A DNA stretch of 36,776 bases from a virus. Positions 128 to 35,542 of the stretch are shown here, one piece after another. The translations under genes and the position numbers were made by a program. Positions within the stretch are counted from its first letter, which is position 1. Every line of letters begins with the position of its first letter. Where the stretch lies: positions 1 through 36,776 of IMG/VR virus record IMGVR_UViG_3300044951_000036; one strand, written 5' to 3'. The notes under the pieces were generated by a model. It was not told where the DNA came from, searched no databases, and saw only the letters and a program-made list of their open reading frames with translations.

Positions 128-154
128 CTTGTTTACCTGGTCTTCATTTGTCAC
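1..154 (-). CDS. Conserved phage protein spanning the contig junction (N-terminal part)
   Basis: A GTG start at 154-152 opens a frame that runs off the left edge and, when the circle is closed, continues from 36649 to a TAA at 36542-36540, giving 87 residues. The GTG shares one base with the portal TAG stop (TAGTG), so translation is probably coupled to the portal. The protein is charged, with a Lys/Arg-rich start (residues 8-14), a conserved-looking LWAFRSSKPEES segment around residue 34 and a C-terminal helix. I do not recognise a functional domain. Its place between portal and scaffold suggests a small head-assembly or DNA-associated protein, which is inference only. Confidence 0.85.
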   Translation of the reverse strand, partial: MTNEDQVNKGRKAKQLLEDETLNTAIAKLENDQLWAFRSSKPEESVKRETA

Positions 155-7390: not shown

Positions 7391-7623
7391 TTATATATAT
7401 CCTCTTTAATCGCCATCTCAATAACATCTTTTAAGTCATCACTGATTAACTCAAATATATCCGCGCCATTTACCCAAACTTCTAATAAATATACCTGTTC
7501 CGGTATAGCTGGCTCAATAACTATTCCCGCCTCTTTAATCTCCGGCTCACTTGGCTCCCACTCGTACCAGCATTCCAATGGCTGGCGGCATAACCCCGTC
7601 ACATGTTCATGCATCAACTTCAT
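7387..7623 (-). CDS. Small acidic protein of unknown function
   Basis: This 78-residue product (MKLMHEHVTGLCRQPLECWYEW...) is acidic and rich in Glu/Ile, with no recognisable domain. The start forms an ATGA overlap with the recombinase stop, and the stop overlaps the HTH gene. Its A/T-rich codon use in the second half matches the following two genes rather than the recombinase. Confidence 0.65.
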   Translation of the reverse strand: MKLMHEHVTGLCRQPLECWYEWEPSEPEIKEAGIVIEPAIPEQVYLLEVWVNGADIFELISDDLKDVIEMAIKEDIYK

Positions 7624-8288
7624 GCTGTCTCTCCTTGTAATGCCCTGCGGATTGCTTCGTGCGAAACAACTACCCCATGGCTGGTTTTTAAAACATTTGA
7701 AATCCCCCGAAACGAAATCCCTGTCGCCCTCATCTCCTTGGCATACGCCAGCGCTGCCTGCTCATGGGGAATCGCCACCAGGGTAGCCGCCTGACCAGTG
7801 CCTTGCACGGCATACCCAAACTTGGCCGAACCACCCAGATGCCCTCCAGCCTTGCGCTTGGCGGCTTGCCCCTGCTTCTGCCTCTCCTTGAGCACTCTGC
7901 GCTCATGGCCAGCAAAGCTGCACAAGATCTCCAGCATCAACTGCGCGTAGATGTTGCTGGAGTCAGTGACATCCCCGTGGCCGTTGATGATCAGCTTGAC
8001 GCCAAGCTCCTTGCACCGCTTGATCGACTGCAAGGCATCCAGCAAATCACGGCTGAACCGATCCAGCTTCGCCACAATCACAGTGTCGCCCTGCTGTAAG
8101 GTGATGCCGTTGGCCTCCAAGCGTGCAAAGAAGGGGTCAGCGCCGCTGACGCCGCCATCCTCAATAAACTGGCTGATGACCAGGCCGTGGCTCATCGCGT
8201 TGCCGTTAATCTGCTGGCGCTGCTCCTGCATGCTGGTGTTGTCCACCTGCTCCGCAGTGCTCACCCTCACATAACCGTAGACCGTCAT
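7620..8288 (-). CDS. Small serine recombinase (resolvase/invertase family)
   Basis: This 222-residue enzyme should recombine DNA at paired sites through a phosphoserine intermediate. YVRVST near the start puts the nucleophile at Ser10 and an arginine at residue 8, exactly as in gamma-delta resolvase. AKLDRFSRD (R77, R80) supplies the further active-site arginines, and a long E-helix region (around IYAQLMLEILCSFAGHERR) follows. The C-terminal 35 residues form an HTH (GISFRGISNVL..., VSHEAIRRAL). A GTG start at 8297 is possible, but ATG 8288 has AGGGAG eight bases upstream. It lacks the large C-terminal domains of serine integrases, so dimer resolution or inversion is more likely than chromosomal integration. 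Confidence 0.93.
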   Translation of the reverse strand: MTVYGYVRVSTAEQVDNTSMQEQRQQINGNAMSHGLVISQFIEDGGVSGADPFFARLEANGITLQQGDTVIVAKLDRFSRDLLDALQSIKRCKELGVKLIINGHGDVTDSSNIYAQLMLEILCSFAGHERRVLKERQKQGQAAKRKAGGHLGGSAKFGYAVQGTGQAATLVAIPHEQAALAYAKEMRATGISFRGISNVLKTSHGVVVSHEAIRRALQGETA

Positions 8289-8291
8289 TAG

Positions 8292-8327
8292 TTGCACTCC
8301 CTGTTAATTTATTGACTGACAGTGCAA
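8292..8327. repeat. Inverted repeat upstream of the serine recombinase
   Basis: TTGCACT at 8292-8298 and AGTGCAA at 8321-8327 are perfect inverted repeats separated by 22 bases. The stem extends outside that to CTGT/ACAG if three bases are bulged. The repeat covers the start of the recombinase transcript and touches the -10 element, so it may be an operator or part of a recombination site. Confidence 0.6.
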
Positions 8328-16289: not shown

Positions 16290-16453
16290 AAGAAATTAAA
16301 ATTACACGGCAAGACTTTGATTCAATTGACCTAAAGATTTCGCGTGACTTGCTTAAATCCGATGATGTTGACTTTGTCATCTTCTTGCAAGACGCGATTG
16401 CTGCGCTTCAATCTCAATTGATGTCCATTGACATGGACGAATCAATTTCCTAA
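16286..16453 (+). CDS. Small acidic protein, last gene of the rightward cluster
   Basis: A 55-residue frame from ATG 16286 (ATGA overlap with the winged-helix gene) gives MKEIKITRQDFDSIDLKISRD..., strongly acidic at the end (SIDMDESIS). It ends at TAA 16453, overlapping by 12 bases the 3' end of the convergent gene that stops at 16442. No motif is recognised. Confidence 0.7.
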   Translation: MKEIKITRQDFDSIDLKISRDLLKSDDVDFVIFLQDAIAALQSQLMSIDMDESIS

Positions 16454-17911
16454 TAAGCCAAGATTTCTTTGCTGCTCAAGGTACTTGTAGTAGTTGTCAA
16501 TCATCTGTTGATCGACCATTGTTGATATGCCTTCTTTACGCTTTTCCAAAGCACCAAGTGCCATGTTTCGGACATCGCCTTTTTTCTTTGAGAATTGATT
16601 CATCAACGATGACATCAGACCAGGCTTCAAGACTTCAATTGGAACGCTTTGTCCAAGTGTCCCAAGATATTGAGCCGTGAAGTCTGTGTTGTACGATGGG
16701 TTTGACGATGGCCTCAAGTGCATACCGAGAGGGTCGGTCATCAGAACGGTGTTGCCGACATATCCCTTTGGCACACCAGCAAGGGCAGGGTCAGTTAATG
16801 CAGCAGATAAGTCTTCTGCATTGAATCCAAGCAATTCCTGATTGCCCTTGGTAGTCAAGCGATCTACCATTGCTTTGCGCAATTCTCCAGCAGTGCCCTT
16901 TATGCCCTCACCGGTCATCAATTGGATGCGGCCTTCTTCTGAGGTCAGCCCAGCAAAGTTTTCAAATGGCGTTGTGATTTTTCTTTTTTCTCCAGAGCCT
17001 TTTGCAATTTTAAAATTGCGGATGGATTCGTCAAGGTTGCCAACTTGTTTTTTGGACAGTTGCCGCATGTCAAGAAGTTGCAGCAAACCTTGAGCCGGCA
17101 TCACACTGAAGTTTTCTGATCCAGCGCCCATCGTAATTGGGAGATGAAGAATTTCTCCAGTGCCGCCAGCCATGATATTTTCTTGACGCGCAATTTTGTC
17201 ACGATCCCTGATTCGTTTGGCAATGGAAAGACCAGAAGCCCCGCCAATTCCTTGCTGCATATGGGCCAAGTCACGGGCGTAATCTTGGCCTCCATGAGTA
17301 ATGATTGGAGACGGAAATGTTTCTCCTGATACGCCGGAAATTTTGTAGTTCCTGCTTGTGCTATCCCACGGCATAACCATAAGGTTAGCGCCCTGATAGT
17401 CTTCCAACTTTACTGGCGTTTTTGGCGCCAGACCACCCATAAAATCTCGGTCGTACCGAGTACCAACTTCGGGATTTGGTTTTAATGGAGTGCTTGGCAA
17501 ATAGACATTTGACCGGCTGCCCTGAGCCATACCCTGCAACAACTCAGCCGGCAAGCCGCCGCGCTGCATGATTTGTGGGACAACCCTTTCAGCCACACGC
17601 TCACCAGCGCGGCCAAGAGCCATTGCTGGAGCTTGAAACACCTTTGCCAATGGAGCAACACCCAAGGCCGTGCCGGTAGCAAAGGCCGGTCTAGCGGTCT
17701 GCATGATCGACTCGTATTGAGGATTCAGAACACTAAACCCCATCTGGTCAGGCGCAGTGCCAAGCAGGCCAGAGACGGCAGCATAGGTGCGCGGGTCAGG
17801 CAAGGTGTTGACATCACGCTGCGCGGCCAAGGCTCTGGCCTTCGCCCCCTGGCGCTGGATGTTCGGGTTGCCAAAGAATGGCATCAAGTCCTCTTCATAA
17901 AGCAGGGCCAT
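16442..17911 (-). CDS. Large virion-associated protein, probable internal/ejection protein
   Basis: This 489-residue protein is the last gene of the late operon and ends tail to tail with the rightward cluster. I recognise no catalytic domain. Its start (MPFFGNPNIQRQGAKARALAAQRDVNTLPDP) and its place after two other large Ala/Gly-rich proteins suit a protein packed in the capsid and injected with the DNA. The central part has a mixed alpha/beta composition unlike the low-complexity neighbours and could be enzymatic. Confidence 0.65.
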   Translation of the reverse strand: MALLYEEDLMPFFGNPNIQRQGAKARALAAQRDVNTLPDPRTYAAVSGLLGTAPDQMGFSVLNPQYESIMQTARPAFATGTALGVAPLAKVFQAPAMALGRAGERVAERVVPQIMQRGGLPAELLQGMAQGSRSNVYLPSTPLKPNPEVGTRYDRDFMGGLAPKTPVKLEDYQGANLMVMPWDSTSRNYKISGVSGETFPSPIITHGGQDYARDLAHMQQGIGGASGLSIAKRIRDRDKIARQENIMAGGTGEILHLPITMGAGSENFSVMPAQGLLQLLDMRQLSKKQVGNLDESIRNFKIAKGSGEKRKITTPFENFAGLTSEEGRIQLMTGEGIKGTAGELRKAMVDRLTTKGNQELLGFNAEDLSAALTDPALAGVPKGYVGNTVLMTDPLGMHLRPSSNPSYNTDFTAQYLGTLGQSVPIEVLKPGLMSSLMNQFSKKKGDVRNMALGALEKRKEGISTMVDQQMIDNYYKYLEQQRNLGLLGN

Positions 17912-17914
17912 AAG

Positions 17915-19765
17915 TTACTCCGGTGTCGCGCCGATTATTGATCCGTAGCCAAGTTGCTCGGCCTTGTTGCGCAGCGACTTGGCAAAAGGCTCGACCTTCA
18001 TCATGTTGGCCTTGCTCATCATTGATGCGGCCAGTTGAGGATCAAGCATAGCCTCCACCAACAGACGCTGCACCTGCTGGTCAGGCAGCTTGTACAACCA
18101 ATCCAATGGTCGGGTCATGGTGCGCAGTGTGGTGTTATCTGCCATAGACTCGCTGAAAACTCGGCCAATCAGGTTGCCCATGCTCAGGTTTTGGAAGGTG
18201 TTTGAGCCTGGTGCGCGAACACCTGGCGCTGTTGACGCTTGGCCTCGATTGATCTCGTTGATGATGTTGTCAATCTTTCTCTGTGCAGCCGGTGACAGAT
18301 CAGTGCCGATCTCTTCGCTCTTGGCAGCCAGTTGCCGGCGCAGTGCAGCCGCCGCCAGCACCGGCTCACCCGTCATTATGTTGGGCTGGCCTGTGGTCAC
18401 TCTGCTTTGAATGGCTTGCAGCAATTCCATTTGGTCAATCGGTTTTGATGACTTAGCAAACTGCTGCATGTACTTGTTAAACCCTGGCGCACTGGATTCA
18501 ATCGTTCTATCAATGACGGGCAGCAATTCGGCCAATTGCCCACGGGCCAAACGCAAGTTTGCCAAGTCGCCGGACAGCTTGCCGGCCATAGCATCGGTGA
18601 TGTCCTTGCGCACGCCGTACAGCGCCATCGGGTTGATGGTGTTTGTCTCAGGGTCTACGCGCTTGACCAGCAGGTCGGTCACATACTTCATGGCCTGATC
18701 GACTGTCTGCCGCTGGGTTGCCGGATTGCTGGTGATGCCAAGAATCGCTGCGGCAACCGGCTCCACCGATACGGGTGGCGCATTCAAAAATGCTTGCTCA
18801 CGCATTGGTGCTGTGATGCTAGACCGCTTGGCTTGGGCATAAGGGATAGAGCCAGGTCGGCCAGCAGTACGCTGGAATGCGTCCATCAATGCCTGCTGGT
18901 TGGCAGACAGTCTTGCGCCAAACAGGTTGGACGGGTCAAATGTCGCAGACCGCAATGGCCCCTCAAGGCCGGCCAGCCCAGGATCACGCGCACCAGCGGC
19001 AGTGGTCAGTTGCACACCTGGCACTGTTGGCCTTGCGGCCTGCAAGTTGGCAATGGCTCGTTCCGGATCAGTTGCGACATTGCGCAGCACATTGCCGACC
19101 ATCACCTCGCGGCCTTGCTGGGTGAAGGGCTGGACAATTGCCCTTGGCGCGGCCAAGGCACGCTGAGTAGTGGACAGGCTTGGGCCACCAGGCGCGGCCA
19201 TGCCGGCCAGCATAGCCCCGCCAAGCTGGAGGGAAGGAGGTGCGCCACCCTCGCGCAACATTCCGCCAGCAGTGGATGCAGCCAAGGCCGCCGCCGTCTG
19301 AGCCTGTGGGCTTTGGGCAAAGAATTGCGCGACATTGCGCCCCATCTCCGGCAGCATGGGCGCAACTTGTCCAGCGACTTTTGCCACACCAGCCGTGCCG
19401 TAACCAGCGCCAGCAATGTCTTGGACTACGCGCTCTTGCGCTGTCCTTGGCTCTGGGAAACCCATGCGGCTAAGGTTGGTTTGTGTGGCCTGAGTCATGG
19501 TCGGCACATTTGTGCCAGCAGCCAAGTTAAAGAAGTTCACCAAAGGGTCAACAGCCATCGGCAGCAGTCCACCAGCAGTCATGGCCGCTTGCGCTATCGG
19601 GCGCACAGCCAAGCCAGCTTCGCGGCCAATGTCTAGGCGTGGTGACAATACCGGCGCTGGTGCTGCCTGTGAATTGATGTAGGCAATCAGCTTGCCTACC
19701 GACTCAACATCGCCAGCAGCATTAGCCTTACGCAGTGCGTCATAGACTTCATTCATGTCGGCCAT
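17915..19765 (-). CDS. Large Ala-rich probable ejection protein
   Basis: The 616-residue product is rich in alanine and glutamine, with long predicted helices, and has a hydrophobic Gly/Ala region around residues 50-185 (GLAVRPIAQAAMTAGGLLP, TAAALAASTAGG) that could insert in or cross a membrane. This is the profile of podovirus internal proteins that extend the tail through the cell envelope. ATG 19765 follows the preceding TAA directly. No lytic transglycosylase motif is visible. Confidence 0.7.
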   Translation of the reverse strand: MADMNEVYDALRKANAAGDVESVGKLIAYINSQAAPAPVLSPRLDIGREAGLAVRPIAQAAMTAGGLLPMAVDPLVNFFNLAAGTNVPTMTQATQTNLSRMGFPEPRTAQERVVQDIAGAGYGTAGVAKVAGQVAPMLPEMGRNVAQFFAQSPQAQTAAALAASTAGGMLREGGAPPSLQLGGAMLAGMAAPGGPSLSTTQRALAAPRAIVQPFTQQGREVMVGNVLRNVATDPERAIANLQAARPTVPGVQLTTAAGARDPGLAGLEGPLRSATFDPSNLFGARLSANQQALMDAFQRTAGRPGSIPYAQAKRSSITAPMREQAFLNAPPVSVEPVAAAILGITSNPATQRQTVDQAMKYVTDLLVKRVDPETNTINPMALYGVRKDITDAMAGKLSGDLANLRLARGQLAELLPVIDRTIESSAPGFNKYMQQFAKSSKPIDQMELLQAIQSRVTTGQPNIMTGEPVLAAAALRRQLAAKSEEIGTDLSPAAQRKIDNIINEINRGQASTAPGVRAPGSNTFQNLSMGNLIGRVFSESMADNTTLRTMTRPLDWLYKLPDQQVQRLLVEAMLDPQLAASMMSKANMMKVEPFAKSLRNKAEQLGYGSIIGATPE

Positions 19766-21238
19766 TTAGCGACTCCGGTTGTAATTGTCAATGATGCTCT
19801 GAATGTCAGTTGGGCGCAATTGACCTGCTTCTGGCTGTATGCCAGCCGTTGATGCGCCTGGAATTTTTCGCTTGTAAGTTGATGTAAGGTTTTCTTCGGC
19901 CCGTGCAGCCATGTCCTCAAGCACCTTGACCTGCTCCGTCATTGCGGCGCGTGAAGTAAAGACACCAGAGAATGATGCTGGGTTAGTAAGTTGCTGCTCA
20001 ATGATCCCCATATCTGGGCCGGTCAATGCGCCAAGCTCGTACAAGTCTTTAACACCCATTAACAGAGACTGATATTTGCCGCGCATTCTCGCAGTGTCTG
20101 ACCCTGTTGGTAATGGAATACTTGCACCAAAAGGCAGTGGCACTTGGCTTGGGAATACCATCTTGTCAGATGCAAGCTCTGTTTTGTATGCAGAGATGTT
20201 GCCCTTCAAATTGTTGAGCTTTTTGGCCGCCTCAGAAAAAGCTGCTGGGGCTTCTTTACCTGGCATCAATTGCTGGCCACCAGCGCCCATAACCGGCATA
20301 GCAGCACCACCTGGAACCTTTGGCACATACATCAGACCATCTGGCCCTTCTTTAATGTCAAAGGCATTGCGATTAAATTCAGCCTCCCGCAAGCCTAAAC
20401 CGCGTTGGGCAATACCTAAATTGCCACGATTTACAGCTAGGTTGCCTTGGGCAACAAGATTAGACGCCACCTCCCCTGGAGTCATTGACATAGCGTAAGA
20501 CTCGCCACCTTTAAGTGCAGACTTGTTGATGGCGACTGTGCGGCCACCAAGGCTCTGCAACACCACTTCGCGCTTAGGCCCAAATCCAGGCAGGGTTTGC
20601 AATGCGCCGGACTTCATTTGCTGCACCAGCACTGGCTTGCCAGTGGCGTCAGTCACCTCAAATGGCTGACCCGTCACTTCAGGGCGCGGGTTGAGTTTTT
20701 CTGCAATTTGTTGAAAGCGCTGTGCATCCTCAGACTTGCCTTGAGCTGCATAAATGTCTGCAATTGCCAAGTATTGATTGGCTTTTGTTTCATTCGCTGT
20801 TGGCTGTGGCATTGAGTCCATCAATTCAGCACGCTGGTTAGTCGGGCCAAGCGGCATGCCTGGTGCAGCCAATGCGGCCTGTGCCGTGTTCAATGGCTGT
20901 GGCGCAGTGGTCATCACATCTGCAATTTGCTTTCTTAATGCTTCTGCCCGTTTTGCCTCCTCCAGCTTTTGAGTAAGCAGCATGTCTTGCAGCGACCCAG
21001 CACGGGCCTGTTGGTAGCCCTGCTGACCCGCTTGCAGTGCCGACCCAAGGGCTTGCCCCAAGCCGATGCGCTGCGGACTGCGGCCACCGGCTTGCAGCAA
21101 TGCAGCCGCCGCTGACAGCGCCGCATTGCGACCCATCAGCTTGCGCTGGTCTTCGGTAAGCAGCGCATCAAGCCCTGATGGCGTGCCGCCACCGCCAAAT
21201 ATGCTGCCGATGTTTGAGTAGTCGAATTGGGTTGCCAT
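19766..21238 (-). CDS. Gln/Ala-rich probable ejection protein
   Basis: This 490-residue protein has an N-terminal Ala/Gln/Gly-rich helical region (LSAAAALLQAGGRSPQRIGLGQALG, residues 38-65), a middle that is Met/Pro-rich and a C-terminal coiled-coil-like part (about 330-465). The composition and place between two similar large genes suggest an internal virion protein. No enzyme motif is seen. Confidence 0.7.
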   Translation of the reverse strand: MATQFDYSNIGSIFGGGGTPSGLDALLTEDQRKLMGRNAALSAAAALLQAGGRSPQRIGLGQALGSALQAGQQGYQQARAGSLQDMLLTQKLEEAKRAEALRKQIADVMTTAPQPLNTAQAALAAPGMPLGPTNQRAELMDSMPQPTANETKANQYLAIADIYAAQGKSEDAQRFQQIAEKLNPRPEVTGQPFEVTDATGKPVLVQQMKSGALQTLPGFGPKREVVLQSLGGRTVAINKSALKGGESYAMSMTPGEVASNLVAQGNLAVNRGNLGIAQRGLGLREAEFNRNAFDIKEGPDGLMYVPKVPGGAAMPVMGAGGQQLMPGKEAPAAFSEAAKKLNNLKGNISAYKTELASDKMVFPSQVPLPFGASIPLPTGSDTARMRGKYQSLLMGVKDLYELGALTGPDMGIIEQQLTNPASFSGVFTSRAAMTEQVKVLEDMAARAEENLTSTYKRKIPGASTAGIQPEAGQLRPTDIQSIIDNYNRSR

Positions 21239-21247
21239 TTTTATTCC

Positions 21248-22204
21248 TTAAAACAGACTGAGCAATGCGCCAAGTCCTGCACCTGCGCCGCTGCTGAGTG
21301 CGCCGCCCGTAAGCCCCGCCAATTGAGAGCCGGCCAAAGCACCACCCAAAGCGCCAGCGCCTAAGTTTTGGCTGTATGGCGTTGATACAGTGCCGCCCAA
21401 GTTGGCAGGCTGCGCACTGAGTGCCGACTGAGCAATCCCCAGGCGCTGAAGATCAACATTGCGCAGTGCATCAAGCTGCTGCTGCTCAAAGGCTTGACGC
21501 GCACCGCCAGCACCCATCGCAGCCTGTGCGCCGCTAAGGCGCAGGGCTTGCTGCTGTGCGCCAAGGTTGCCCAATTGGCCACCCGCCGCCAGCCTAAACT
21601 GAGCACCCTGCAAGCCCGTTGCTTGATTTTGTGCAGCCGCCGCCTGTTGCCGTGCCAAGTCAGCCGCCTGCAATTGCACAGCCTGATTGAATGCCGACTC
21701 GTTAAGCTGAGTGCCAAGAGTGCCGGCCTGCTTGGCAAACGCTTGGTTGGTCAAAGCCTCTGCAACACCTTGGCGCGAACCACCGAATGCACGGGCTTGC
21801 ATGGCACGCTCACCCGTCTGCCCGATAGCCATGCGTCTTGAAGACTCCAAGTCCTCCAGAGCATTCTGGCGCACCAAGCTGGTGTACGGATTCATGTAGC
21901 TGCCAATTGAGCCAGGGCCACTCATGCCCAGGTTGGCTTGAGCCGCCTGCAACTCGGCAGGCTGGTATGTGCCGCTGAGTGCGGCCATTTGGGCAGCGTA
22001 GTCGGTGCTACTGATGCCTGGGCCACCCAAGCCGGTATTGACAAGCTGCTCCTCACCAGCCGTATACAGCGGGTTGTAGCCTGCAAACTGCTGGACGGGC
22101 AATGCGCCGGCCACGCCTTGAGCCTGCGCCACATTTGAAAGGAATGCCCGTTTGATGTCTGGATCGATTGAGGTCGATGAAGTTGTGCTGCCGCCTTTTG
22201 ACAT
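21248..22204 (-). CDS. Gly/Ala/Gln-rich virion protein
   Basis: The 318-residue product starts MSKGGSTTSSTSIDPDIKRAF and contains YMNPYTSLVRQNALEDLESSR, ARAFGGSRQGVAEAL and long Gln/Ala runs, ending in a Gly/Ala-rich hydrophobic tail (GALGGALAGSQLAGL). This pattern is common in podoviruses from aquatic samples and is usually placed among internal or DNA-ejection proteins. Function is inferred from context. Confidence 0.7.
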   Translation of the reverse strand: MSKGGSTTSSTSIDPDIKRAFLSNVAQAQGVAGALPVQQFAGYNPLYTAGEEQLVNTGLGGPGISSTDYAAQMAALSGTYQPAELQAAQANLGMSGPGSIGSYMNPYTSLVRQNALEDLESSRRMAIGQTGERAMQARAFGGSRQGVAEALTNQAFAKQAGTLGTQLNESAFNQAVQLQAADLARQQAAAAQNQATGLQGAQFRLAAGGQLGNLGAQQQALRLSGAQAAMGAGGARQAFEQQQLDALRNVDLQRLGIAQSALSAQPANLGGTVSTPYSQNLGAGALGGALAGSQLAGLTGGALSSGAGAGLGALLSLF

Positions 22205-22214
22205 TTTTAGCCCC

Positions 22215-23336
22215 TTATCCGAGTAGAGATTTCATTTTTTTGGCAGGAATCTTGCCATCGTTAATCATCGAAAGCAGCCCCTCGCCATACTTTTTAACCG
22301 CTGATTTTTTGATGACAAACTCACCGCCCAGCAGTGCGCCATAGCCCTCATCTGGGCCTTTGGGATTTGGGCCTTTGAGATGAGCCTTAATGACCTTGCC
22401 GCCTTTAGCGTATTGGCCTTCGCCAAAGCTGCTACTGCCAGCGCTATCACTGTAGCCACCATAACCGCCGCCATCCCCACCAAGATTTTGGTCTGAAATG
22501 CTTTGTGCTTCTGCCGCTGCAATGGCATCATTTATGGCCTGCTGCTCCGCAAAAGAGCCGCCGCCGTAACTTCCGATTGCACCTTCTGCTGCCGCATTGT
22601 CAGCAGATTGCTGGGCGGCTCGTTGCTCCAAATCCGCTTGGACTTGAGCAATGATGCCGGCGGCCCAATTGTTTCGGTCTGCTTCTCTGGCGGCTACTGC
22701 TGCCGCCGTGTCTCGATTCAAAGCGTCTTGCATGCTGGTCATCGAAACCGCTGTTGGTGATGACACATTTGTCGCTGCCGTATCTTGTTCTGCTTGGGCC
22801 TGTGCGGCAGCTTGTGCCGCCGCCGCTGCCTCCGCTTCCGCTGCTCGATTCATAGCGTTGATTTCGCTTTGCCTAAAGGTTTCTTTTGCGGCCTGATAAG
22901 CCTGTGGATCAACACCCATTGCAATCAAGCCTTGGTCAGCCACAAAGCCAGGGGCAAAAAGTCCTTGCAATCTGCCAAGTGTTGTATTTCCAAAAAGGCT
23001 TTGACCAAATTGAGTTATGCCGGCCATCGTTGGGTTGTCTGCATAATACGAAGCCTTTTGGGCATCGGTCATGCTGTCCCATGTTGAGTTTGTCATGCCA
23101 GCACCTGCACTTGAACCAGGGCCACCGCCGCCATAAGTCCCCATAGGGCTGGTTTTGGCCGGAGTCTTGGGAACTACTGGAGCGACAGTGCCGCCAGCAA
23201 GCAACCCCGTTGCGGCAGGGTAGGGGTTGGCAAATGGCCGCATCTGCGACATCAAGTCTCTGTATCGATTTTGTGAGCCGCCGATACCAGGCTGGGTCAA
23301 CAGGTACTGCTGATATAACTCTTCCATTGTCGCCAT
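22215..23336 (-). CDS. Low-complexity virion protein with conserved basic C-terminus
   Basis: This 373-residue protein has a Gly/Pro/Ser-rich N-terminal third, a long Ala/Gln/Glu helix (about 147-265) and a distinctive C-terminus with ALLGGEFVIKKSAVKKYGEG then GKIPAKKMKSLLG. That C-terminal pattern recurs in phage proteins encoded near ejection proteins, often next to tail hub genes. The function is unknown, and a structural or injected role is likely. Confidence 0.65.
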   Translation of the reverse strand: MATMEELYQQYLLTQPGIGGSQNRYRDLMSQMRPFANPYPAATGLLAGGTVAPVVPKTPAKTSPMGTYGGGGPGSSAGAGMTNSTWDSMTDAQKASYYADNPTMAGITQFGQSLFGNTTLGRLQGLFAPGFVADQGLIAMGVDPQAYQAAKETFRQSEINAMNRAAEAEAAAAAQAAAQAQAEQDTAATNVSSPTAVSMTSMQDALNRDTAAAVAAREADRNNWAAGIIAQVQADLEQRAAQQSADNAAAEGAIGSYGGGSFAEQQAINDAIAAAEAQSISDQNLGGDGGGYGGYSDSAGSSSFGEGQYAKGGKVIKAHLKGPNPKGPDEGYGALLGGEFVIKKSAVKKYGEGLLSMINDGKIPAKKMKSLLG

Positions 23337-27433: not shown

Positions 27434-27946
27434 TCAGGCCATCATCTTTTCAGCGTCCTTAGATACCTCGGCAACCCGCCGGCCCCAGCCCTTGCCAAAT
27501 GTCTCCCATGTAGGTAAAGCCTGCAAGAAACTCAAGCGCTTGGCGTTGTAGTCCTCGACAAGATTTCCGACATCCATGCTTGCGACCTTCTCTAGCGTTT
27601 TTGGCCCGATCATGCCATCTTCTGGCACGCCCAGCACTTTTTGCAGCATCTTGGCTGCACGCCCTGGGCCGGAATTCACAGCCAAATCAAATACCGCCAT
27701 ATCCACGCCAACAGGTAGATTGTCGCCGCAAACCTTGTCCCAATACTTTTTGCGGTACATAGGGCCGACATCAGCGGGTGTTAAGGCACGCATTGCCTTT
27801 TCATCCACCTCATGCCCCACCCATTCCTCCCAGACTCGTTTGGTTACGCCAAGGTTGGTCATGCCACCTGGGTCTTTTGGATGGTTAACATACCCACCCT
27901 CATGGTGCAGGACAGCGGCCAAGCATTGGTCAAAGTTCTCTTTCAT
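27434..27946 (-). CDS. Endolysin, GH108 family with PG-binding C-terminus
   Basis: The 170-residue enzyme should cleave the glycan strand of peptidoglycan. It shows the GH108 pattern: VLHHEGGYVNHPKDPGGMTNLGVT with the catalytic Glu of EGGY near residue 16, YWDKVCGDNLPVGVDMAVFDLAVNSG and a C-terminal half of the PG_binding_3 type (MLQKVLGVPEDGMIGPKTL). There is no signal peptide or anchor, so it needs the holin to reach the wall. It is ATGA-coupled to the holin-like gene. Confidence 0.95.
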   Translation of the reverse strand: MKENFDQCLAAVLHHEGGYVNHPKDPGGMTNLGVTKRVWEEWVGHEVDEKAMRALTPADVGPMYRKKYWDKVCGDNLPVGVDMAVFDLAVNSGPGRAAKMLQKVLGVPEDGMIGPKTLEKVASMDVGNLVEDYNAKRLSFLQALPTWETFGKGWGRRVAEVSKDAEKMMA

Positions 27947-28353
27947 TTCTTAGCTCTCATTTCCATGATTTTTTCCAGTGTGCGGCCCCCAAAATACGCT
28001 GACATGACCAGCATGCCCCACTGGCCCAGCAGTTCAACATAAGACGCCTGAGCGTTGTATCCAAAAGCCGACATCATGGCAAAAACAAAATAGCCAACAA
28101 AGATAGCAACTAAGGCCATTGGCCTGATGTTTTTGGACAGCCATGAGTCCGATGCCATGTCGGCATCCCAGCGCTCAGAAACGCCGGCTTGCTCAGTCTT
28201 GTACAAGTCCGTCTCATTTGCCATCTTTGCCAACTCGCCATCTTGCGCCATCCTGGCTAAATCAAGCTGTGCCTTGGCCTTGGCCTCTGGATCGGGGATC
28301 AGTTTGTCAATCAGCTTGCCGCCGACTTCAAGTAGGGCTGTAAGAGGAAACAT
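27943..28353 (-). CDS. Holin-like membrane protein (3TM holin family)
   Basis: From ATG 28353, which has AAAGGTGAGC upstream, the product is 136 residues. It starts with FPLTALLEVGGKLIDKLIPDPEAKAKAQLDL, then a polar helix and NIRPMALVAIFVGYFVFAMMSAF and LLGQWGMLVMSAYFGGRTLEKI, which fits the Phage_3TM holin family often found beside GH108 endolysins. The longer frame to 28419 overlaps the previous gene and is less likely. The holin would time lysis by opening the inner membrane. Confidence 0.85.
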   Translation of the reverse strand: MFPLTALLEVGGKLIDKLIPDPEAKAKAQLDLARMAQDGELAKMANETDLYKTEQAGVSERWDADMASDSWLSKNIRPMALVAIFVGYFVFAMMSAFGYNAQASYVELLGQWGMLVMSAYFGGRTLEKIMEMRAKK

Positions 28354-28363
28354 GCTCACCTTT

Positions 28364-28861
28364 CTAAAAACTACACTTGCCAGCGCACTGGTCAATGATC
28401 TCAAACGAAAAATAGGCAATCACACCGATCATGAAGAAAAACACCAGACCGAGCAAAACAATCTCAATGAAATCGTCCATCTCTTTCTTTTGTCTTGCTG
28501 CTGCCTCGCGCTCACGCCGCGCATCATGCGCGGCCTCTATGTCTAGGCTGGCTGCACGGGCTACGATTTTTTGCCACACATCCATTTTGTTGGATTGAAA
28601 AAAGAGCATCTTGATCTCTTCTTCAAATGCCCTGGCCTGCTCGATGGCAAGTTCCAATTCAATGGCCTTGCCCATTGAAGAACCTTTAAACCCCTTGGTC
28701 TTAGACTGCTGGACAACTTTTATCGCGTCTGCCTTGGCAGAAAAAAACTTGCCCAGAACAGGGCCAAGGCTTTCAACATCCTTGACTGTCTGGGCAGCAG
28801 TTTTTACCAGCTTTACGGCAGTGCTGATCGCCGCAAGTGCTGTGAACGGGTCAATCATCAC
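28364..28861 (-). CDS. Coiled-coil membrane protein, probable lysis accessory
   Basis: The 165-residue protein has an N-terminal weakly hydrophobic helix (FTALAAISTAVKLVKTAAQ), a long charged coiled-coil (about 60-130) and one clear membrane segment near the C-terminus (FIEIVLLGLVFFFMIGVIAYFSF). It ends with cysteines (CAGKC). It sits between two other membrane proteins upstream of the endolysin. A spanin-like or holin-regulating role is possible. No lipobox or proline-rich spanin pair is visible. Confidence 0.7.
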   Translation of the reverse strand: MMIDPFTALAAISTAVKLVKTAAQTVKDVESLGPVLGKFFSAKADAIKVVQQSKTKGFKGSSMGKAIELELAIEQARAFEEEIKMLFFQSNKMDVWQKIVARAASLDIEAAHDARREREAAARQKKEMDDFIEIVLLGLVFFFMIGVIAYFSFEIIDQCAGKCSF

Positions 28862-29089: not shown

Positions 29090-29533
29090 TTAACCTACTG
29101 CGTACAAACGCTTGGGTTTAGGCTGGATAAGCTGGGCTATCTCTTCGGCGTAATACTGCATCCCGCCTAAAGCGCCCTTAATACGGAAATCGTAGTGTTC
29201 TGGCTCTACAAACAGCTTGTTCGTGTCCTCGAAGCGGCCTTCTTTAATGCGATCAACCCAAACAATAAACGCAGGGCCAAAGGCTTCTCGCGCCTCTGGT
29301 GTTGGGCAAACAAAGTCAGCAATTACATTAGCGCCATGCCTGCTGGCAATGTCACACAAGACGCCCATACGCCGCGCCTGTTCAATGCGATCAGCTACGC
29401 TAAAGCCAAGGTCTTTGTTGATTTCCTTGCGGATTTCATCGGCGTTGAAGTGGACGCACTGTAACTCCCTTGCCAAAGCAGCAGCCAATGTTGTTTTACC
29501 AGAGCCAGGCAGGCCCATCACTAGAATTTTCAT
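29090..29533 (-). CDS. APS-kinase-like (adenylylsulfate kinase) P-loop kinase
   Basis: Adenylylsulfate kinase phosphorylates APS to PAPS, the sulfate donor. The 147-residue product starts MKILVMGLPGSGKTTLAAAL, with a P-loop at residues 7-15. It continues with FNADEIRKEINKDLGFS, ADRIEQARRMGVLCD and VIADFVCPTPEAREAFG, which match in order the APS-kinase motifs (LDGDNVR, LGFS, DR..NIRR and the PxxxxR loop). It is shorter than cellular CysC (about 200), and the substrate-lid region is reduced to RFEDTNKLFVEPEHYDFRI. The start shares one base with the sulfotransferase stop (TGATG). Alternatives are polynucleotide or small-molecule kinases with the same fold. Confidence 0.8.
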   Translation of the reverse strand: MKILVMGLPGSGKTTLAAALARELQCVHFNADEIRKEINKDLGFSVADRIEQARRMGVLCDIASRHGANVIADFVCPTPEAREAFGPAFIVWVDRIKEGRFEDTNKLFVEPEHYDFRIKGALGGMQYYAEEIAQLIQPKPKRLYAVG

Positions 29534-30351
29534 CACTTGACCTTGTACAGTTGCTTGACCGAAAACTCTGGTGCGGGTGTGCGCCAGAAATCTTTGCCGG
29601 CATATTTTTCCCACACCGACTTTGGAAGTATAGACGGGCGCTCTTGCCAAGTAACTTCTTTCCTGACAGTGTGTAGGCTCTTCATGTTCAAGCCTCTATC
29701 AAAGACTTCGTTTTCGTACTCCACATTTTTAAAGTCATGGTCAAAGTACTGCTTGCCAATGAATTGATACAACTCACGCATCACGCTCTCAGGCTTTTTG
29801 CACAGCGACTCATACTCCACCAGCATGATCATGTCTGGGTTGAGTAGCAGCCCCTCTTCCAGAAAGTAATAGGGCTTGACCACTTGGCCTTCCTTCTTCA
29901 CATCCATCAGGGCATCGCACCTTGTAGTGACTGTTTGCCTTGACTCATCATCTGTCAGGGCTGCACCATACAGGGAGTTCTTGGCCGCAATTCTTTCAAA
30001 GCTATCCAGTATCCACGGCAGATCACGCACACAGCAAATGATCTTGGTCTGTGGATACAGGTCTTTAAGCAGAGATGTCTTAGCAGTCCATCCCCTGCTG
30101 GTGTCAAACACCGTAGGCTGCTCTACGGCATCGTAAAACGCATTGAAGACGGACTTGAGAATATGCTTGCGTCTGTCTTCATCAATAAGGTGGTTGCTCT
30201 CACTGCCCGTGATGACATTGATGGTCGATGTGACCAAGCCTTGTACGGGTGAAGAGATGTCTGCGTAAAACTCAGGGTTTTGACGCAGAATGGCCGAAAG
30301 CAGGGTTGAGCCTGATCTTGGCAAACCAGAGATGAAGAAGAAATCTTTCAT
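29533..30351 (-). CDS. PAPS-dependent sulfotransferase
   Basis: Sulfotransferases move sulfate from PAPS to sugars, peptides or small molecules. This 272-residue protein begins MKDFFFISGLPRSGSTLLSA, so the 5'-phosphosulfate loop PRSGSTLL is at residues 11-18. IICCVRDLPWILDSFERI (about 104-121) fits the 3'-phosphate-binding motif with its Arg and Ser. Later LVEYESLCKKPESVMRELYQFIG is the usual late helix. There is no signal peptide or membrane segment, so it acts in the cytoplasm. ATG 30351 overlaps the upstream gene by ATGA, and the stop is coupled to the APS-kinase-like gene. The acceptor is unknown. Confidence 0.88.
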   Translation of the reverse strand: MKDFFFISGLPRSGSTLLSAILRQNPEFYADISSPVQGLVTSTINVITGSESNHLIDEDRRKHILKSVFNAFYDAVEQPTVFDTSRGWTAKTSLLKDLYPQTKIICCVRDLPWILDSFERIAAKNSLYGAALTDDESRQTVTTRCDALMDVKKEGQVVKPYYFLEEGLLLNPDMIMLVEYESLCKKPESVMRELYQFIGKQYFDHDFKNVEYENEVFDRGLNMKSLHTVRKEVTWQERPSILPKSVWEKYAGKDFWRTPAPEFSVKQLYKVK

Positions 30352-30782
30352 GTTTGAGTAGCCTGTGCAACCCAATTGACAGCAGCCTCATCCCATTCAT
30401 AACGCATATTGCCGCCGTTCATAATTGCATCTACGGGTCTTGGTACGGGCGCACCCCATGTCATTGTGTCTGGGTAGCCAATCCAAGATGGGTAAGGCTT
30501 ACGGGCTTCATGCTCTGCGGTTTTAAGGGTGGTGTACTCTGCCTCAGTCAAAACCTGTAAAACACCAGCAATGGTAGTGTCGGCATCGTCATCGCAAGTG
30601 CCGTAGTACTTGGGCGCTCTCAGATATGTGCCGTCAGGTGCAACTTCAACAGGCCATGTGGATTTGTCCTGCCAAATAATTTGCAAGCCTTTAATTTCCG
30701 GAATCGATGGCCCCGTGCGCTGTGGCTCAACAGTGCAAGGAATCTTTGTTGCTGCGTCAACTTCTGTTACACAAATATACAT
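30348..30782 (-). CDS. Tail-fibre-associated protein, function unknown
   Basis: The 144-residue product is aromatic- and proline-rich with a Trp-containing C-terminus (YPSWIGYPDTMTWGAPVPRP, MRYEWDEAAVNWV). Its place directly after tail-fibre genes and its content resemble small tail-fibre assembly or cap proteins, but I cannot assign a family. It is ATGA-coupled to the sulfotransferase. Confidence 0.65.
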   Translation of the reverse strand: MYICVTEVDAATKIPCTVEPQRTGPSIPEIKGLQIIWQDKSTWPVEVAPDGTYLRAPKYYGTCDDDADTTIAGVLQVLTEAEYTTLKTAEHEARKPYPSWIGYPDTMTWGAPVPRPVDAIMNGGNMRYEWDEAAVNWVAQATQT

Positions 30783-30796
30783 TTTTTGCCTAAATG

Positions 30797-31456
30797 TTAA
30801 AGGGCTACACGGCGAACGGCTCTAACTCTTTTGCTTGATGTTTTTGTGGTATCACCTCTGTAGCCACCATAAAATGATATGTAGTAGCCACGATAATATG
30901 AGCTAGTAGATTTCTCGTTACCCCAATATGGGCCGCTTGCTTCAAAAGATTCCGCACCTCCTGATTGGAAAGCAGATACGGATGTTTGTGCAGGGTCTCC
31001 CGAACCATACGCTGTCGTTCTTTCGGGAATAGAATTGGGGTTTACACCTGAGTTAATTCCTGTGTTATTGGCTGCTGTTCCAGGTTTTAAATTGACATAA
31101 CAAACTTTAAGTTCATTTATTGCTGGCATATACCAATCATCAAAACCACCAATAACTAAATCGTTACAAAACTTAGCCGCTGGGTAACTGGATGCCCCTA
31201 GTGCTACTAATGTTGCAGTATTAGCCGGCCCGTTAATATTGCTACTTGAACCAGTAGTACTGAAACCATTAGCGTAATTAACGCTACCAGATTCCCCCGA
31301 AGATTTGGGCGCAACAATTAAATAATGTGTTGCAGTGCCAGAAACTCCAATACTTCCAGCGTAAAACCCGCCTCCGTAAGCAGCGCCTATGCCACTAGGA
31401 ACGGGTGGGCCAAAACTTCTTTGGTTTTGAAAAACAGCTTGTAAAGCACCACTCAT
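30797..31456 (-). CDS. Lectin-like receptor-binding tip protein (DUF1566/C-type-lectin-like)
   Basis: The 219-residue protein has a C-terminal two-thirds with the pattern of DUF1566/FGE-type C-lectin folds: [17 protein letters not shown] near residue 105, then a loop region and [23 protein letters not shown] followed by KRVRAVRRV at the end. Such domains form variable host-binding tips. The gene is clearly richer in A/T than its neighbours, which suggests exchange by recombination. Its ATG overlaps the fibre gene's stop (ATGA), so the two are probably subunits of one appendage. Confidence 0.7.
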
Positions 31457-32937
31457 GTTAATCCACTCCCTGAAATTAACCAGTTGGTAGAGGTAATCTT
31501 TATTGCCGTAGCTGACCCGTACTGCGCCAAACTGCGCGAACCAGTTGTGCCAGCAGCACTCAAATACATTGTGTCTGTGGTAATTGCAATTGTTACCACT
31601 TGGCTTGTCATGTTTACAAAGGTGATCGCAGTGCCAATTGGGTAAGCTACAGACGAATTTGCAGGGATCGTAAATGTCCGTGCATTGGCATCAGTTGATG
31701 GGTGAAAGATGTGCTTGCCAGCATCGGCAAGAACCAATGTGTAGGCCGCACTTTGGCTGTTTTGCGGGATGTTTTTAAATCCAACTTCATTTGTGCCGTC
31801 AACCGTGCATGAAGATAAAGTGCCACTTGCTGGCGTACCCAAGGCAGGGGTTGTCAGTGTTGGTGAGGTAAGCGTTTTGTTGGTCAGGGTCTGCGTTGCT
31901 GTGACCCCGACTACACCAGTAAGAGTATTGCTTGCGTAATCAATAGTCTTGTTGGTCAGGGTCTGCGTTGCTGTGACGCCGGCCACACCAGTAAGTGTGT
32001 TGCTTGCGTAATCAATAGTCTTGTTGGTCAGGGTCTGTGTGTCCGTCAATGTAGCAATTCCAGCGGCAGCCAGAGTAGTCGCGCCTGTGCCGCCGTTGGC
32101 TACATTTAAAGTTCCCGCAAGAGTCACAGTGCCAGAACTTGTAACGGGGCCGCCGCTTGTAGTCAGTCCAGTTGTGCCGCCTGACACATCCACGCTGGTC
32201 ACTGAGCCAGAGCCTGGGCCGGTAAACGCAATATTTATAGACCCAGCACCTGGTGTGATGGTCACGCCAGAGCCAGCGGTCAAAGACGCCTTGGTCAGCG
32301 TATTGCCGGTGCTGTTGCCGATCAGCAATTGACCATCGGTGTAGCTGGTCTGCCCCGTGCCGCCATTGGCTACCGCCAGTGTCCCCGTAACGGCAGTACC
32401 CAAAGGAATGCCCGTAGCAGCCCCTGTGCCGCCATTAGCCACCGGCAGGATGCCAGTAACGCCAGTGGTCAATGGCAGCCCTGTGGCATTGGTCAGCACA
32501 GCCGCTGATGGTGTGCCAAGTGCTGGCGTCACCAAAGTCGGTGAATTGGTAAACACCAAAGCACCAGTGCCTGTTTCATCCGTCACAGCAGCAGACAAAT
32601 TTGCGCTGGATGGCGTGGCCAAGAAAGTGGCTATGCCAGTGCCAAGACCACTCACACCCGTTGAAATTGGCAGCCCTGTGGCATTGGTTAGCACCGCCGC
32701 GGAAGGTGTGCCCAAGGCTGGCGTTACCAGCGTGGGGCTGGTAGACAGTACATTGTTGCCAGTGCCCGTACTTGTACCAACACCTGTACCACCCTTAGTC
32801 ACCTTCAACAATGGGCCAGCATCAAACAGGGCATCAATTGTGTCCAGGTTTGTGTTGACCTTGCCGCCCCAAGTGTTGGCACTTGCGCCAACTTCCGGCT
32901 TGGTCAGCAATAGGTTTGTGGTGGTGGTATCTGCCAT
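31453..32937 (-). CDS. Tail fibre protein with repeated beta-motifs
   Basis: This 494-residue protein shows a typical phage-fibre N-terminus ([31 protein letters not shown]) and then repeated units of the kind [25 protein letters not shown] and [19 protein letters not shown], ending with a C-terminal beta-rich domain (about 385-494, [17 protein letters not shown] type). Trimeric fibres with such repeats bind the host surface. Two units of a 24-residue repeat are near-identical in DNA as well. Confidence 0.88.
31881..32024 (-). repeat. 72-bp repeats within the tail fibre gene
   Basis: The segment beginning TGGTCAGGGTCTG recurs at 31881, 31953 and 32025, a period of 72 bp (24 residues). The first two units are almost identical, and the third begins the same way and then diverges. 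The period keeps the reading frame, so the number of units can change by slippage or recombination without breaking the gene. Confidence 0.8.
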
Positions 32938-32946
32938 TTTTAGTCC

Positions 32947-33570
32947 TTAGCCAAAAGTTTTTGCGCGGGTCAATAAATTGCCGCCAGAAGTCGAGCCACG
33001 ATCATCGGCCACCTGCAAGTCATTCAATCCACGCTCGTAAAGAGTAGCCCATGTCTGTATTCGCGCATCATCTTGCAGGTATGGTGCGGCCTGCAACAGT
33101 GAGCCGTACAGATAAATGTCGGGGCTTGATGTCAAAAGAAAATTGGTCGCCACGCTTGCAGACAGCTTCTCCAGCTTTGCAAAATACACGATCTCTGCCG
33201 TATAGCTTGCATCCGGCGTTGGCACAAAACGAAATTGAGTGCCGACCACACCAAAGAATTTGGGCCTGCCGCTGGCCGTGAATTTTGTTGCTTCCTCGTC
33301 CAGTGCATCCATCGTCATAAAAGACAATGGAGTCACTGGATTGGTGCTGGTCAACTTTAGTGCCCGAGTCTCTAAAAAGTCAGATTGCGTTGACTCAAAC
33401 TCGCCGTCAATAGTCAAGGTTGTCCTGGTCAGCATTTGACGGGTGCGCAGCGTGCGCTCAATCTGCGCTTCAGCCAAAGAGATAAAGTCGGGAATAGTGG
33501 CTGTCAAATCTGAACGATTCAGCCAATCCGCAATTGAAGTCTTTAGCTCGGTGTAGGTTGTCAGTGCCAT
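32947..33570 (-). CDS. Head-tail adaptor protein (SU10-adaptor-like)
   Basis: The 207-residue product starts MALTTYTELKTSIADWLNRSDL and continues with IPDFISLAEAQIERTLRTRQM, a helical opening typical of adaptor proteins that dock on the portal in podoviruses such as SU10. A beta-rich centre (GRPKFFGVVGTQFRFVPTPD) and a helical end (SLLQAAPYLQDDARIQTWATLYERGLNDL) follow. It sits among the head genes, which fits. Confidence 0.82.
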   Translation of the reverse strand: MALTTYTELKTSIADWLNRSDLTATIPDFISLAEAQIERTLRTRQMLTRTTLTIDGEFESTQSDFLETRALKLTSTNPVTPLSFMTMDALDEEATKFTASGRPKFFGVVGTQFRFVPTPDASYTAEIVYFAKLEKLSASVATNFLLTSSPDIYLYGSLLQAAPYLQDDARIQTWATLYERGLNDLQVADDRGSTSGGNLLTRAKTFG

Positions 33571-34221
33571 TTATTGAGCCTCTTTTTCCATTTCCTCTTT
33601 GACTATCCAAGTGTGGTCATGGCGAAATTCAAATGTGCCGATATGGCCGATTTCCTTGGAGACATCATGGTCGATGTAGATTTTGTAACCAAGCTCTTGC
33701 GCTTTCTTACAAAAGAACACATCCTCACCCATGTAGCCCCTGCTGGTCTGCCACGGCATATCAAACCACGGCTCACTCATGCCCTCAAACACCTCGCGCT
33801 TGATCAGCATTATGCCAGTACCAATGCTTCCCACCTCTTCCAATCCAGTAGATTCTGGCATGGTGTAGACCGATTGGCGCTTGCCTTCGGCGTCATAATT
33901 TTGGGCAGTCGGGCCAGTTGGCATTCTGCGCCGTGCGCAGTTGGCCGCCACAATTGGCTTGTCGTGGGCAAGCAGCCGGCCCACCATGTCCTGTGGGAAT
34001 GTCATGTCAGAGTCAATGAAAAGGATGTGCGTGCAGCCTTCGGCCATCGCGTCCAAGCAAAGGTCAGCCCTTTGGTTTTGGATAATTGTGCCTTGCATCA
34101 ATTTCAGACTGATTGCGTCTGTGGTGTTGAGCGTGTGATAGGCCACCAAATTAACCATGCAGTAGGTGTAATTGGTGTGAACCTGGTCACGGGCGGGGGT
34201 GCAGACAGCAATGTAGTTCAT
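33571..34221 (-). CDS. Glycosyltransferase, GT-A fold
   Basis: The 216-residue protein begins with a beta strand (YIAVCTPARDQVHTNYTYC) and has a clear DxD motif in ILFIDSDMTFPQD near residue 69. GSIGTGIMLIKREVFEGM near residue 133 and GEDVFFCKKAQELGYKIYIDHD near residue 165 are the typical late motifs of GT-A phage glycosyltransferases, with the Glu-Asp as likely catalytic pair. It lies between capsid and adaptor genes and is ATGA-coupled to its upstream neighbour. It might decorate virion proteins, or host or DNA sugars. Confidence 0.85.
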   Translation of the reverse strand: MNYIAVCTPARDQVHTNYTYCMVNLVAYHTLNTTDAISLKLMQGTIIQNQRADLCLDAMAEGCTHILFIDSDMTFPQDMVGRLLAHDKPIVAANCARRRMPTGPTAQNYDAEGKRQSVYTMPESTGLEEVGSIGTGIMLIKREVFEGMSEPWFDMPWQTSRGYMGEDVFFCKKAQELGYKIYIDHDVSKEIGHIGTFEFRHDHTWIVKEEMEKEAQ

Positions 34222-34579: not shown

Positions 34580-35542
34580 TTAAGAAGTAATCAAGTCAGC
34601 GGCCAAGCCGTGGGCATTTTCAGCCAGCACTTTATGACCCCACTCAACGATCAGCATGCGCTTCTCAGCGTCACCTGTCTTGGCCAGTTCGACTTGCTGG
34701 TAAGGGCGCAGCACAGTCATCTTGGCGTAGTCAGGATCGATCACCCATGCATCGCGTTCACGCTGGAAACGGTTGGCAATCACTTGCACATTTCCGAAAT
34801 CTGAAACGTAGATGTCAACCGCGCCGACCAGTGTTGCAGGCTTTGCACCGCCATCAATGTTGAAACGGCTGGAGGCAATACCAGAGAAACCAGATACGCG
34901 CTGCTTGTTAACAGGGCCGCACATCAGAATCTTAGGTGTACCACCGGCTGTCCAGACCTTCTGAATCACATTCTTGAGAATGGTTTCAGTGAAGGTTCGC
35001 ACATTGCCGTCACTACGCGCATTGTTTGGCAATGTGGTGTAGCTTGGGTCAGCGCCGTTGGTCTGCTTGTCGGTGTTTGTTTTCACAAACGCGCCGAGAG
35101 ATGCAGTAACACGGGCAGTTGTAGAGTCACCAGCCACAGCGATACCGCCGTTCAGCATGACAAACTCTTGGTCGCGCTTCAACTCAGAGCCACGCTTTGC
35201 GATCTGGTAAGCCAGTTCGCTGCGGCGGCCAGCCTTGTTCACCACTTCTTCAGTGGCAGACAGGATGATCGTCTTGCGTGAAATCTGTGCGTAGTTTTGC
35301 AGACGCACAGTTGCGGTCACAGAGTCAAAAGTGCCGACATCATCACCCTCAAGCTGAGCATTGGCAGCGGCTGCGGCCAATGTGTCAGTCTGCCACTCAA
35401 ACAGGCTGTTGGACACATTCTCGCGTCCAATGTTTGACATGTAAGGTGTCTCTTCAGGTGCAATGTTGGTGATCACATTGCTAAGATCTTCCCGAATACC
35501 CTTTGCAGAGTAAGTCAGGAATGTATTGCTAACGATAGCCAT
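34580..35542 (-). CDS. Major capsid protein (DUF5309, SU10-like HK97 fold)
   Basis: The 320-residue product begins MAIVSNTFLTYSAKGIREDLSNVI and includes APEETPYMSNIGRENVSN, then FEWQTDTLAAAAANAQLEGDD, characteristic of the DUF5309 capsid family used by SU10 and related podoviruses. Later segments (RGSELKRDQEFVMLNGG, VIDPDYAKMTVLRPYQQVELAKTGDAEKR) match the same family. AGGAAAT just upstream of ATG 35542 is a good ribosome-binding site. A strong terminator follows. Confidence 0.93.
   Translation of the reverse strand: MAIVSNTFLTYSAKGIREDLSNVITNIAPEETPYMSNIGRENVSNSLFEWQTDTLAAAAANAQLEGDDVGTFDSVTATVRLQNYAQISRKTIILSATEEVVNKAGRRSELAYQIAKRGSELKRDQEFVMLNGGIAVAGDSTTARVTASLGAFVKTNTDKQTNGADPSYTTLPNNARSDGNVRTFTETILKNVIQKVWTAGGTPKILMCGPVNKQRVSGFSGIASSRFNIDGGAKPATLVGAVDIYVSDFGNVQVIANRFQRERDAWVIDPDYAKMTVLRPYQQVELAKTGDAEKRMLIVEWGHKVLAENAHGLAADLITS

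Follow-up and report, generated by a model that had tools for sequence, protein, structure and literature searches.

The closest known counterparts of the kinase considered here are CysC and the APS-kinase domain of PAPS synthase, a bifunctional enzyme (animal PAPSS; bacterial Sat-CysC fusions) in which an APS-kinase-like domain and a nucleotidyltransferase, the ATP sulfurylase PF01747, are held in one chain. In CysC of Mycobacterium tuberculosis, Phe492 and Phe576 sandwich the adenine of adenylyl sulfate (APS), Arg483 and Arg497 hold the phosphosulfate and Asp480 is the proposed base, while on the ATP side a lid provides Arg559, which stacks on the adenine of ATP, and Lys562, which takes part in catalysis (PMC4373884). 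A Cys-to-Ser change that loosens this lid inactivates the enzyme (PMC4373884). Reports on viral cysC treat it as a gene of sulfur assimilation (PMC10127799, PMC9611531). Phage sulfotransferases have also been reported, with a function stated to be unclear; those of cyanophages and OM43 phages (S-SKS1, S-SRM01; PMC10580990) have no APS-kinase partner described, and none is annotated beside the S-SKS1 gene. PHROG 10255 belongs to the same family as the kinase considered here, as do proteins encoded by Stenotrophomonas phage DLP6 and Xanthomonas phage AhaSv, which are labelled hypothetical protein, bear an additional CTP_transf_like domain and have no sulfotransferase annotated alongside. In the open-access literature, a scope outside which most subscription papers and preprints lie, we found no paper that describes a PAPS-sulfotransferase pair in phages, an APS kinase without its lid or an ATP sulfurylase of NMNAT-like type.

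Genomic context of the pair

The window, by which we mean the whole 36.8-kb virus record analysed here, comes from a tailed phage whose capsid is of the SU10 type (Table 1). Its late operon lies entirely on the minus strand and runs from the tail fibre through a 219-aa Lcl_C-like gene, a 144-aa gene, the sulfotransferase (ST), the kinase and several small genes to holin and endolysin, which agrees with the first-pass annotation in placing the pair between fibre and lysis genes. The stop-start junction described there at 29090-30351 is likewise present, as ST ends in AAG TGA and the ATG of the kinase uses the same A, giving a 1-nt overlap. The 144-aa gene and ST likewise overlap, by 4 nt at the stop of the former and the start of the latter, so that three genes are coupled. 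In other phages, too, this variable slot is preceded by genes similar to the 144-aa gene.

Table 1. Features of the pair and its surroundings in the window.
Feature	Position	Strand	Remarks
SU10 major capsid protein	34580-35542		
Glycosyltransferase-like gene (Anp1 / PHROG glycosyltransferase)	33571..34221	-	same late region
SU10 adaptor	32947-33570		
Tail fibre protein	31453..32937	-	upstream context; phrog_31660
144-aa gene upstream of ST	30348..30782	-	stop overlaps ST start, 4 nt
PAPS-dependent sulfotransferase (ST), 272 aa, Sulfotransfer_3 family	29533..30351	-	
ST 5'-phosphosulfate-binding loop PRSGSTLL, residues 11-18	30298..30321	-	sequence and family knowledge
ST 3'-phosphate-binding motif Arg109...Ser117 (VRDLPWILDS)	30001..30027	-	sequence and family knowledge
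Short-lid APS-kinase-like protein, 147 aa	29090..29533	-	start overlaps ST stop (TGATG)
Kinase P-loop GLPGSGKT, residues 7-14	29492..29515	-	
Kinase APS pocket Asp32, Arg35, Phe44, Arg49	29387..29440	-	= CysC Asp480, Arg483, Phe492, Arg497
Kinase reduced lid segment RFEDTNKLFVEP, residues 100-111	29201..29236	-	Phe101 = CysC Phe576
Endolysin and holin	27434..28419	-	downstream context; phrog_315, phrog_3427
Large terminase	4409-5818		
Portal	154-2403		

Two glycosyltransferases and a methyltransferase had also been listed at first pass; we recover one glycosyltransferase-like gene and one methyltransferase domain gene (2361-2882), the latter overlapping the start of the portal gene, and a second glycosyltransferase was not found. 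Elsewhere in this phage with SU10-like capsid genes, 7620-8297 encodes a serine resolvase-type recombinase, and 16442-23336 holds five large late proteins (489, 616, 490, 318 and 373 aa) with zero PHROG matches, four of which were checked against Pfam too, with no match.

The sulfotransferase

ST matches Sulfotransfer_3 (PF13469) at E 2.2e-17 and 64.5 bits, above the gathering cut-off of 27 bits, and carries both PAPS-binding motifs of that family. PRSGSTLL, which had been read as a PAPS loop from the outset, we take from knowledge of the family to be the 5' loop, and Arg109...Ser117 presumably forms the 3'-phosphate motif. The nearest solved relatives are tyrosylprotein sulfotransferases, which have the 5' loop and the 3' Arg...Ser motif in common with ST and are matched only weakly (E 0.002 to TPST1). 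The cyanophage and OM43 phage enzymes belong to the same family at ~30% identity, and 171 ST relatives are present in IMG/VR.

The kinase

The best Pfam match of the kinase is APS_kinase (PF01583; E 1.7e-15; 57.8 bits against a gathering score of 21.1), spanning only residues 3-84 of the protein and positions 5-91 of the 152 in the profile, with AAA_33 as runner-up at 1.8e-12. APS kinases are also its best NCBIfam and PDB sequence matches, a profile built from 31 phage kinases matches PDB APS kinases at 1e-12, and the PHROG polynucleotide kinase match reaches 6.9e-06. When the AlphaFold model (pLDDT 86) was compared with the PDB by Foldseek, ranks 1-36 were all APS-kinase structures, with query TM of 0.69-0.81. 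With CysC and the APS-kinase domain of PAPS synthase, its best sequence and fold matches, the protein shares the P-loop fold and the signature NKDLGFSxxDR. The first-pass annotation had allowed that so short a protein could be a different P-loop kinase; on family ranking, fold and residues we reject a polynucleotide or other kinase of this class. The protein falls within PHROG 10255.

Residues of the APS side are strictly kept. None of the four pocket residues listed in Table 1 varies among 40 family representatives, nor do Lys13 and Thr14 of the P-loop, and the position of Phe101 holds F or Y in 38 of the 40. The ATP side is different, as alignment with CysC reveals that the canonical lid helix RDxKGLYxKA is deleted, and with it Arg559 and Lys562, both conserved in CysC. 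This loss is family-wide, the lid motif RDxKGxY being missing from 303 family matches and found in 73 canonical kinases of the fetched loci, and it explains why the kinase fails the strict equivalog cut-off of TIGR00455 (56.1 vs 138.7 bits). Further departures from CysC are the length of 147 aa, the change of DGDN to NADE and the replacement of Asn in DRxEN by Gln. The APS-kinase identity first given to this gene is therefore upheld by its matches and its APS contacts but does not extend to a standard CysC. Judged by its sequence, the family has an intact APS side and a cut-down ATP-side lid, for which reason we name it a new short-lid APS-kinase-like subfamily.

Linkage of the two genes in phages

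Co-occurrence in other phages had been proposed at first pass as a survey, and the pair recurs both in related phages and in a second phage lineage. Of the two outcomes named there as refuting, a better match to other kinases with APS-binding residues lacking and a failure to co-occur in related phages, neither was observed. We fetched 80 loci of close ST relatives from IMG/VR, one of which is untestable as its contig ends 98 nt past ST; in all 79 others the ST stop is followed, at an offset of -4, -1 or +2 nt, by the start of a same-family kinase. These kinases comprise 50 nucleotidyltransferase fusions (~260-285 aa), 24 short forms of the 147-aa type and 5 cut by contig ends. Over the kinase domain, short and fused forms share only 40-50% identity, yet ST is ~90% identical across loci, from which it follows that ST has been joined to two different kinases and in no case lacks one. 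For a neutral control we used the major capsid protein to retrieve 80 loci and counted the 25 with at least 7.5 kb downstream: 22 have neither gene, 3 have both and none has one alone (Fisher p = 4e-4). In several relatives without the pair, the fibre region is followed directly by genes of the lysis region, and the pair therefore looks to have been gained or lost as a unit. The capsid-matched control and the unbroken adjacency rule out chance neighbours.

Fusions of the short-lid kinase to a CTP_transf_like/NMNAT-like domain occur in phages at L017:5819-6601, L012:5819-6670, L160:4001-4732 and L161:3992-4738, and include those of the cultured phages DLP6 and AhaSv. The AlphaFold model of a fused protein has a pLDDT of 58.

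Short-form kinases that lack a close ST alongside were found on 24 contigs, 17 of which carry another sulfotransferase, of 590 aa; the other 7, possibly all fragments, carry no recognised sulfotransferase. A Sulfotransfer_2 search of the same 24 contigs gave no match, and its control was equally silent. The N-terminal domain of the 590-aa protein is Sulfotransfer_3, and its C-terminal half, with no Pfam match at the threshold used, has by eye a TPR and heptosyltransferase-type likeness. In loci fetched by this protein, the kinase lies 0.3-4.7 kb downstream in 29 of the 32 with enough sequence, one of these a fragment, and when the same lineage was sampled by a neutral marker gene the kinase was present within a few kb in 27 of 31 genomes, a set that overlaps with the former. 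As the sulfotransferase was present in every genome tested, there is no negative control for a 2x2 test of co-occurrence, and the set speaks for retention of the kinase, not for correlated gain. The 590-aa gene itself is at L123:509-2278, with relatives in L243-L322, in phages of up to 55-65 kb, and genes for RCC1-like tail proteins (GWGxNxxGQLG repeats) are found nearby. Four phages (L496-L499) have a sulfotransferase without the kinase, three of them with two tandem sulfotransferases.

The notion that the kinase is only ever found beside a sulfotransferase is refuted by loci with a methyltransferase-like gene, a glycosyltransferase-like gene or no enzyme gene upstream. At L091:5363-6877 and L123:5429-6856, the genes beside the kinase are by eye an HldE/RfaE-like adenylyltransferase, a cupin and an HldE-like sugar kinase, which suggests synthesis of an ADP-heptose-type precursor in these phages. 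At L155:4444-5004, a 186-aa gene with PKNASR and RDPYIRFWS motifs and no Pfam match stands directly before the kinase; it is possibly a divergent sulfotransferase.

Bacterial relatives and the nucleotidyltransferase partner

A genome scan identified kinase-nucleotidyltransferase proteins in Alphaproteobacteria, at 56-65% identity. The kinase gene is followed by an ASST-like gene and a Sulfotransfer_3 gene at L323 and L325, is flanked by a TPR/GT9 gene and a TPR-sulfotransferase at L327, and precedes a Sulfotransfer_3 gene at L328. Searching 385 genomes across the class brought in L428 and L429 as well, where the kinase and a sulfotransferase are ~2-3 kb apart. A Sulfotransfer_3 gene is within ~4 kb of the kinase at each of these loci. 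No canonical APS kinase was seen in five of the seven first-found bacterial genomes, several of these being drafts. Taking gene neighbourhood as the guide, several phage lineages and Alphaproteobacteria employ this kinase subfamily together with sulfotransferases.

In four streamlined genomes (0.8-1.1 Mb), the kinase and the nucleotidyltransferase are separate adjacent genes that end a sulfate-assimilation operon, in the order CbiX-like, CysG C-terminal methyltransferase, CysI, CysH, small protein, kinase and nucleotidyltransferase, with the CysG, CysI and CysH models all above cut-off. The operon is located at L425:4536-9646 in G284, and likewise in L423, L424 and L427. Its company places the kinase in sulfate activation. 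Neither ATP sulfurylase PF01747 nor CysD was seen in three of the four (G186, G284 and G363), where the sole PF01507 protein above cut-off is CysH; the fourth, G054, has PF01747, and any of these genomes may be incomplete.

The partner domain of the longer kinases is a nucleotidyltransferase of ~115 aa whose profile matches NMN adenylyltransferases and which keeps the HxGH and ISATxxR motifs; it also has an invariant Arg42 and a YGRDVGY motif. The longer members thus resemble PAPS synthase in joining an APS-kinase-like domain and a nucleotidyltransferase in one chain, and differ from it in that the partner is NMNAT-like, not PF01747. The window kinase has no partner domain: PF01747 is absent from it by Pfam, and neither an HxGH nucleotidyltransferase motif nor an ATP-sulfurylase-like gene was found in the window. 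The lack of Sat and CysD in three of the four streamlined genomes, together with the operon position, points to the nucleotidyltransferase as the leading candidate for the step that joins ATP and sulfate, and, whether fused or adjacent, it probably supplies this step to APS in many members.

Discussion

We propose that ST and the kinase form a phage module that supplies PAPS and spends it on sulfation of an acceptor, most likely a sugar, late in infection, a reading to which we assign a probability of about 0.77. In this model the pair would be expressed late, alongside the structural and lysis genes. As no ATP-sulfurylase-like gene is present in the window, APS must come from the host, which would make it, and the window phage, being without the nucleotidyltransferase, would rely on that supply. 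The kinase would phosphorylate the 3'-OH of APS to give PAPS, which ST would then use to sulfate its acceptor, the likeliest candidate being a sugar carried by the virion or by the envelope of the infected cell. The description of the pair at first pass as self-contained is, for the same reason, too strong for the window phage; in many relatives, a candidate for the APS-making step is fused to the kinase. That the acceptor would be a sugar is suggested by the 590-aa ST fusions, by the heptose-synthesis-like and glycosyltransferase-like genes of the slot and by the glycosyltransferase-like gene of the window, and this Anp1-type gene is a possible source of the sugar to be sulfated. A sulfated glycan on the virion, or one on the cell surface that blocks superinfection, as first put forward, we treat as a hypothesis. 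Because the kinase also adjoins genes for attaching or assimilating sulfate in further phages and in bacteria, it seems that phages carry a sulfation kit of their own.

The phosphosulfate-holding arginines of the kinase are invariant, it is the fixed partner of two distinct sulfotransferase types and of bacterial sulfotransferases, and with the nucleotidyltransferase it is contained in a sulfate-assimilation operon, all of which make it unlikely that the kinase acts on a different adenylylated or sugar-phosphate metabolite, building a nucleotide-activated glycan precursor with the fused nucleotidyltransferase while ST is merely a co-member of the cassette. Such a role would accommodate the NMNAT-like profile of the nucleotidyltransferase, which is not that of an ATP sulfurylase, the loss of the catalytic lid lysine, and the character of the slot as a glycan-modification hot spot, in which glycosyltransferase-, methyltransferase- and HldE-like genes adjoin the kinase in some phages. 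The absence of the Arg559 and Lys562 lid could also signify a kinase that is catalytically dead or regulatory, acting as an APS sensor or a sulfotransferase partner with PAPS drawn from host CysC, the more so as the lid-loosening Cys-to-Ser change already inactivates the M. tuberculosis enzyme (PMC4373884). We consider this improbable, as Lys13, Thr14 and Asp32 are invariant in 40 of 40 representatives, unlike in a decaying pseudokinase, and in five of the seven bacterial genomes that have the family no other APS kinase was seen.

Viral cysC genes are usually read, and reported, as assimilatory (PMC10127799, PMC9611531), which would have the pair serve sulfur nutrition through assimilatory sulfate reduction, and the kinase does sit in an assimilation operon in some bacteria. 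In these phages its coupled partner is a sulfotransferase rather than a reductase, and the operon is a late one; nutrition is the reading we find hardest to credit. Should the PAPS-supply and sulfotransfer module proposed here be true, some phage sulfotransferase and viral cysC genes would form a sulfation kit, and phages would add sulfate to their virions or to the surface of the host, which phage biology has seldom considered as a modification.

The short-lid kinase further questions the need for the CysC lid in catalysis, and where CysH and CysI are kept but no known ATP sulfurylase was seen, the nucleotidyltransferase provides a concrete candidate for the missing enzyme. If it is a new ATP sulfurylase, the kinase family would be part of a new sulfate-activation system. 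We give even odds to the view that the short-lid kinase and the NMNAT-like nucleotidyltransferase constitute such an unrecognised system, a non-orthologous ATP sulfurylase and a lid-less APS kinase that together would make a minimal PAPS synthase of ~260 residues, serving assimilation in streamlined Alphaproteobacteria without Sat or CysD and standing beside sulfotransferases in phages. The finding that in G238 and G328 the neighbour of the kinase is a Rieske oxygenase, not a sulfotransferase, counts against the proposed sulfation module, as do the deleted lid, the Gln in DRxEN, the score far below the TIGR00455 cut-off, the kinase-bearing contigs with no recognised sulfotransferase and the loci where methyltransferase or glycosyltransferase genes adjoin the kinase instead. 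At L422:8261-11050 and in L426, from genomes of 1.2-1.3 Mb, a Rieske oxygenase, whose nearest model is glycine betaine monooxygenase, the kinase, the nucleotidyltransferase and an enoyl-CoA-hydratase-like gene are consecutive.
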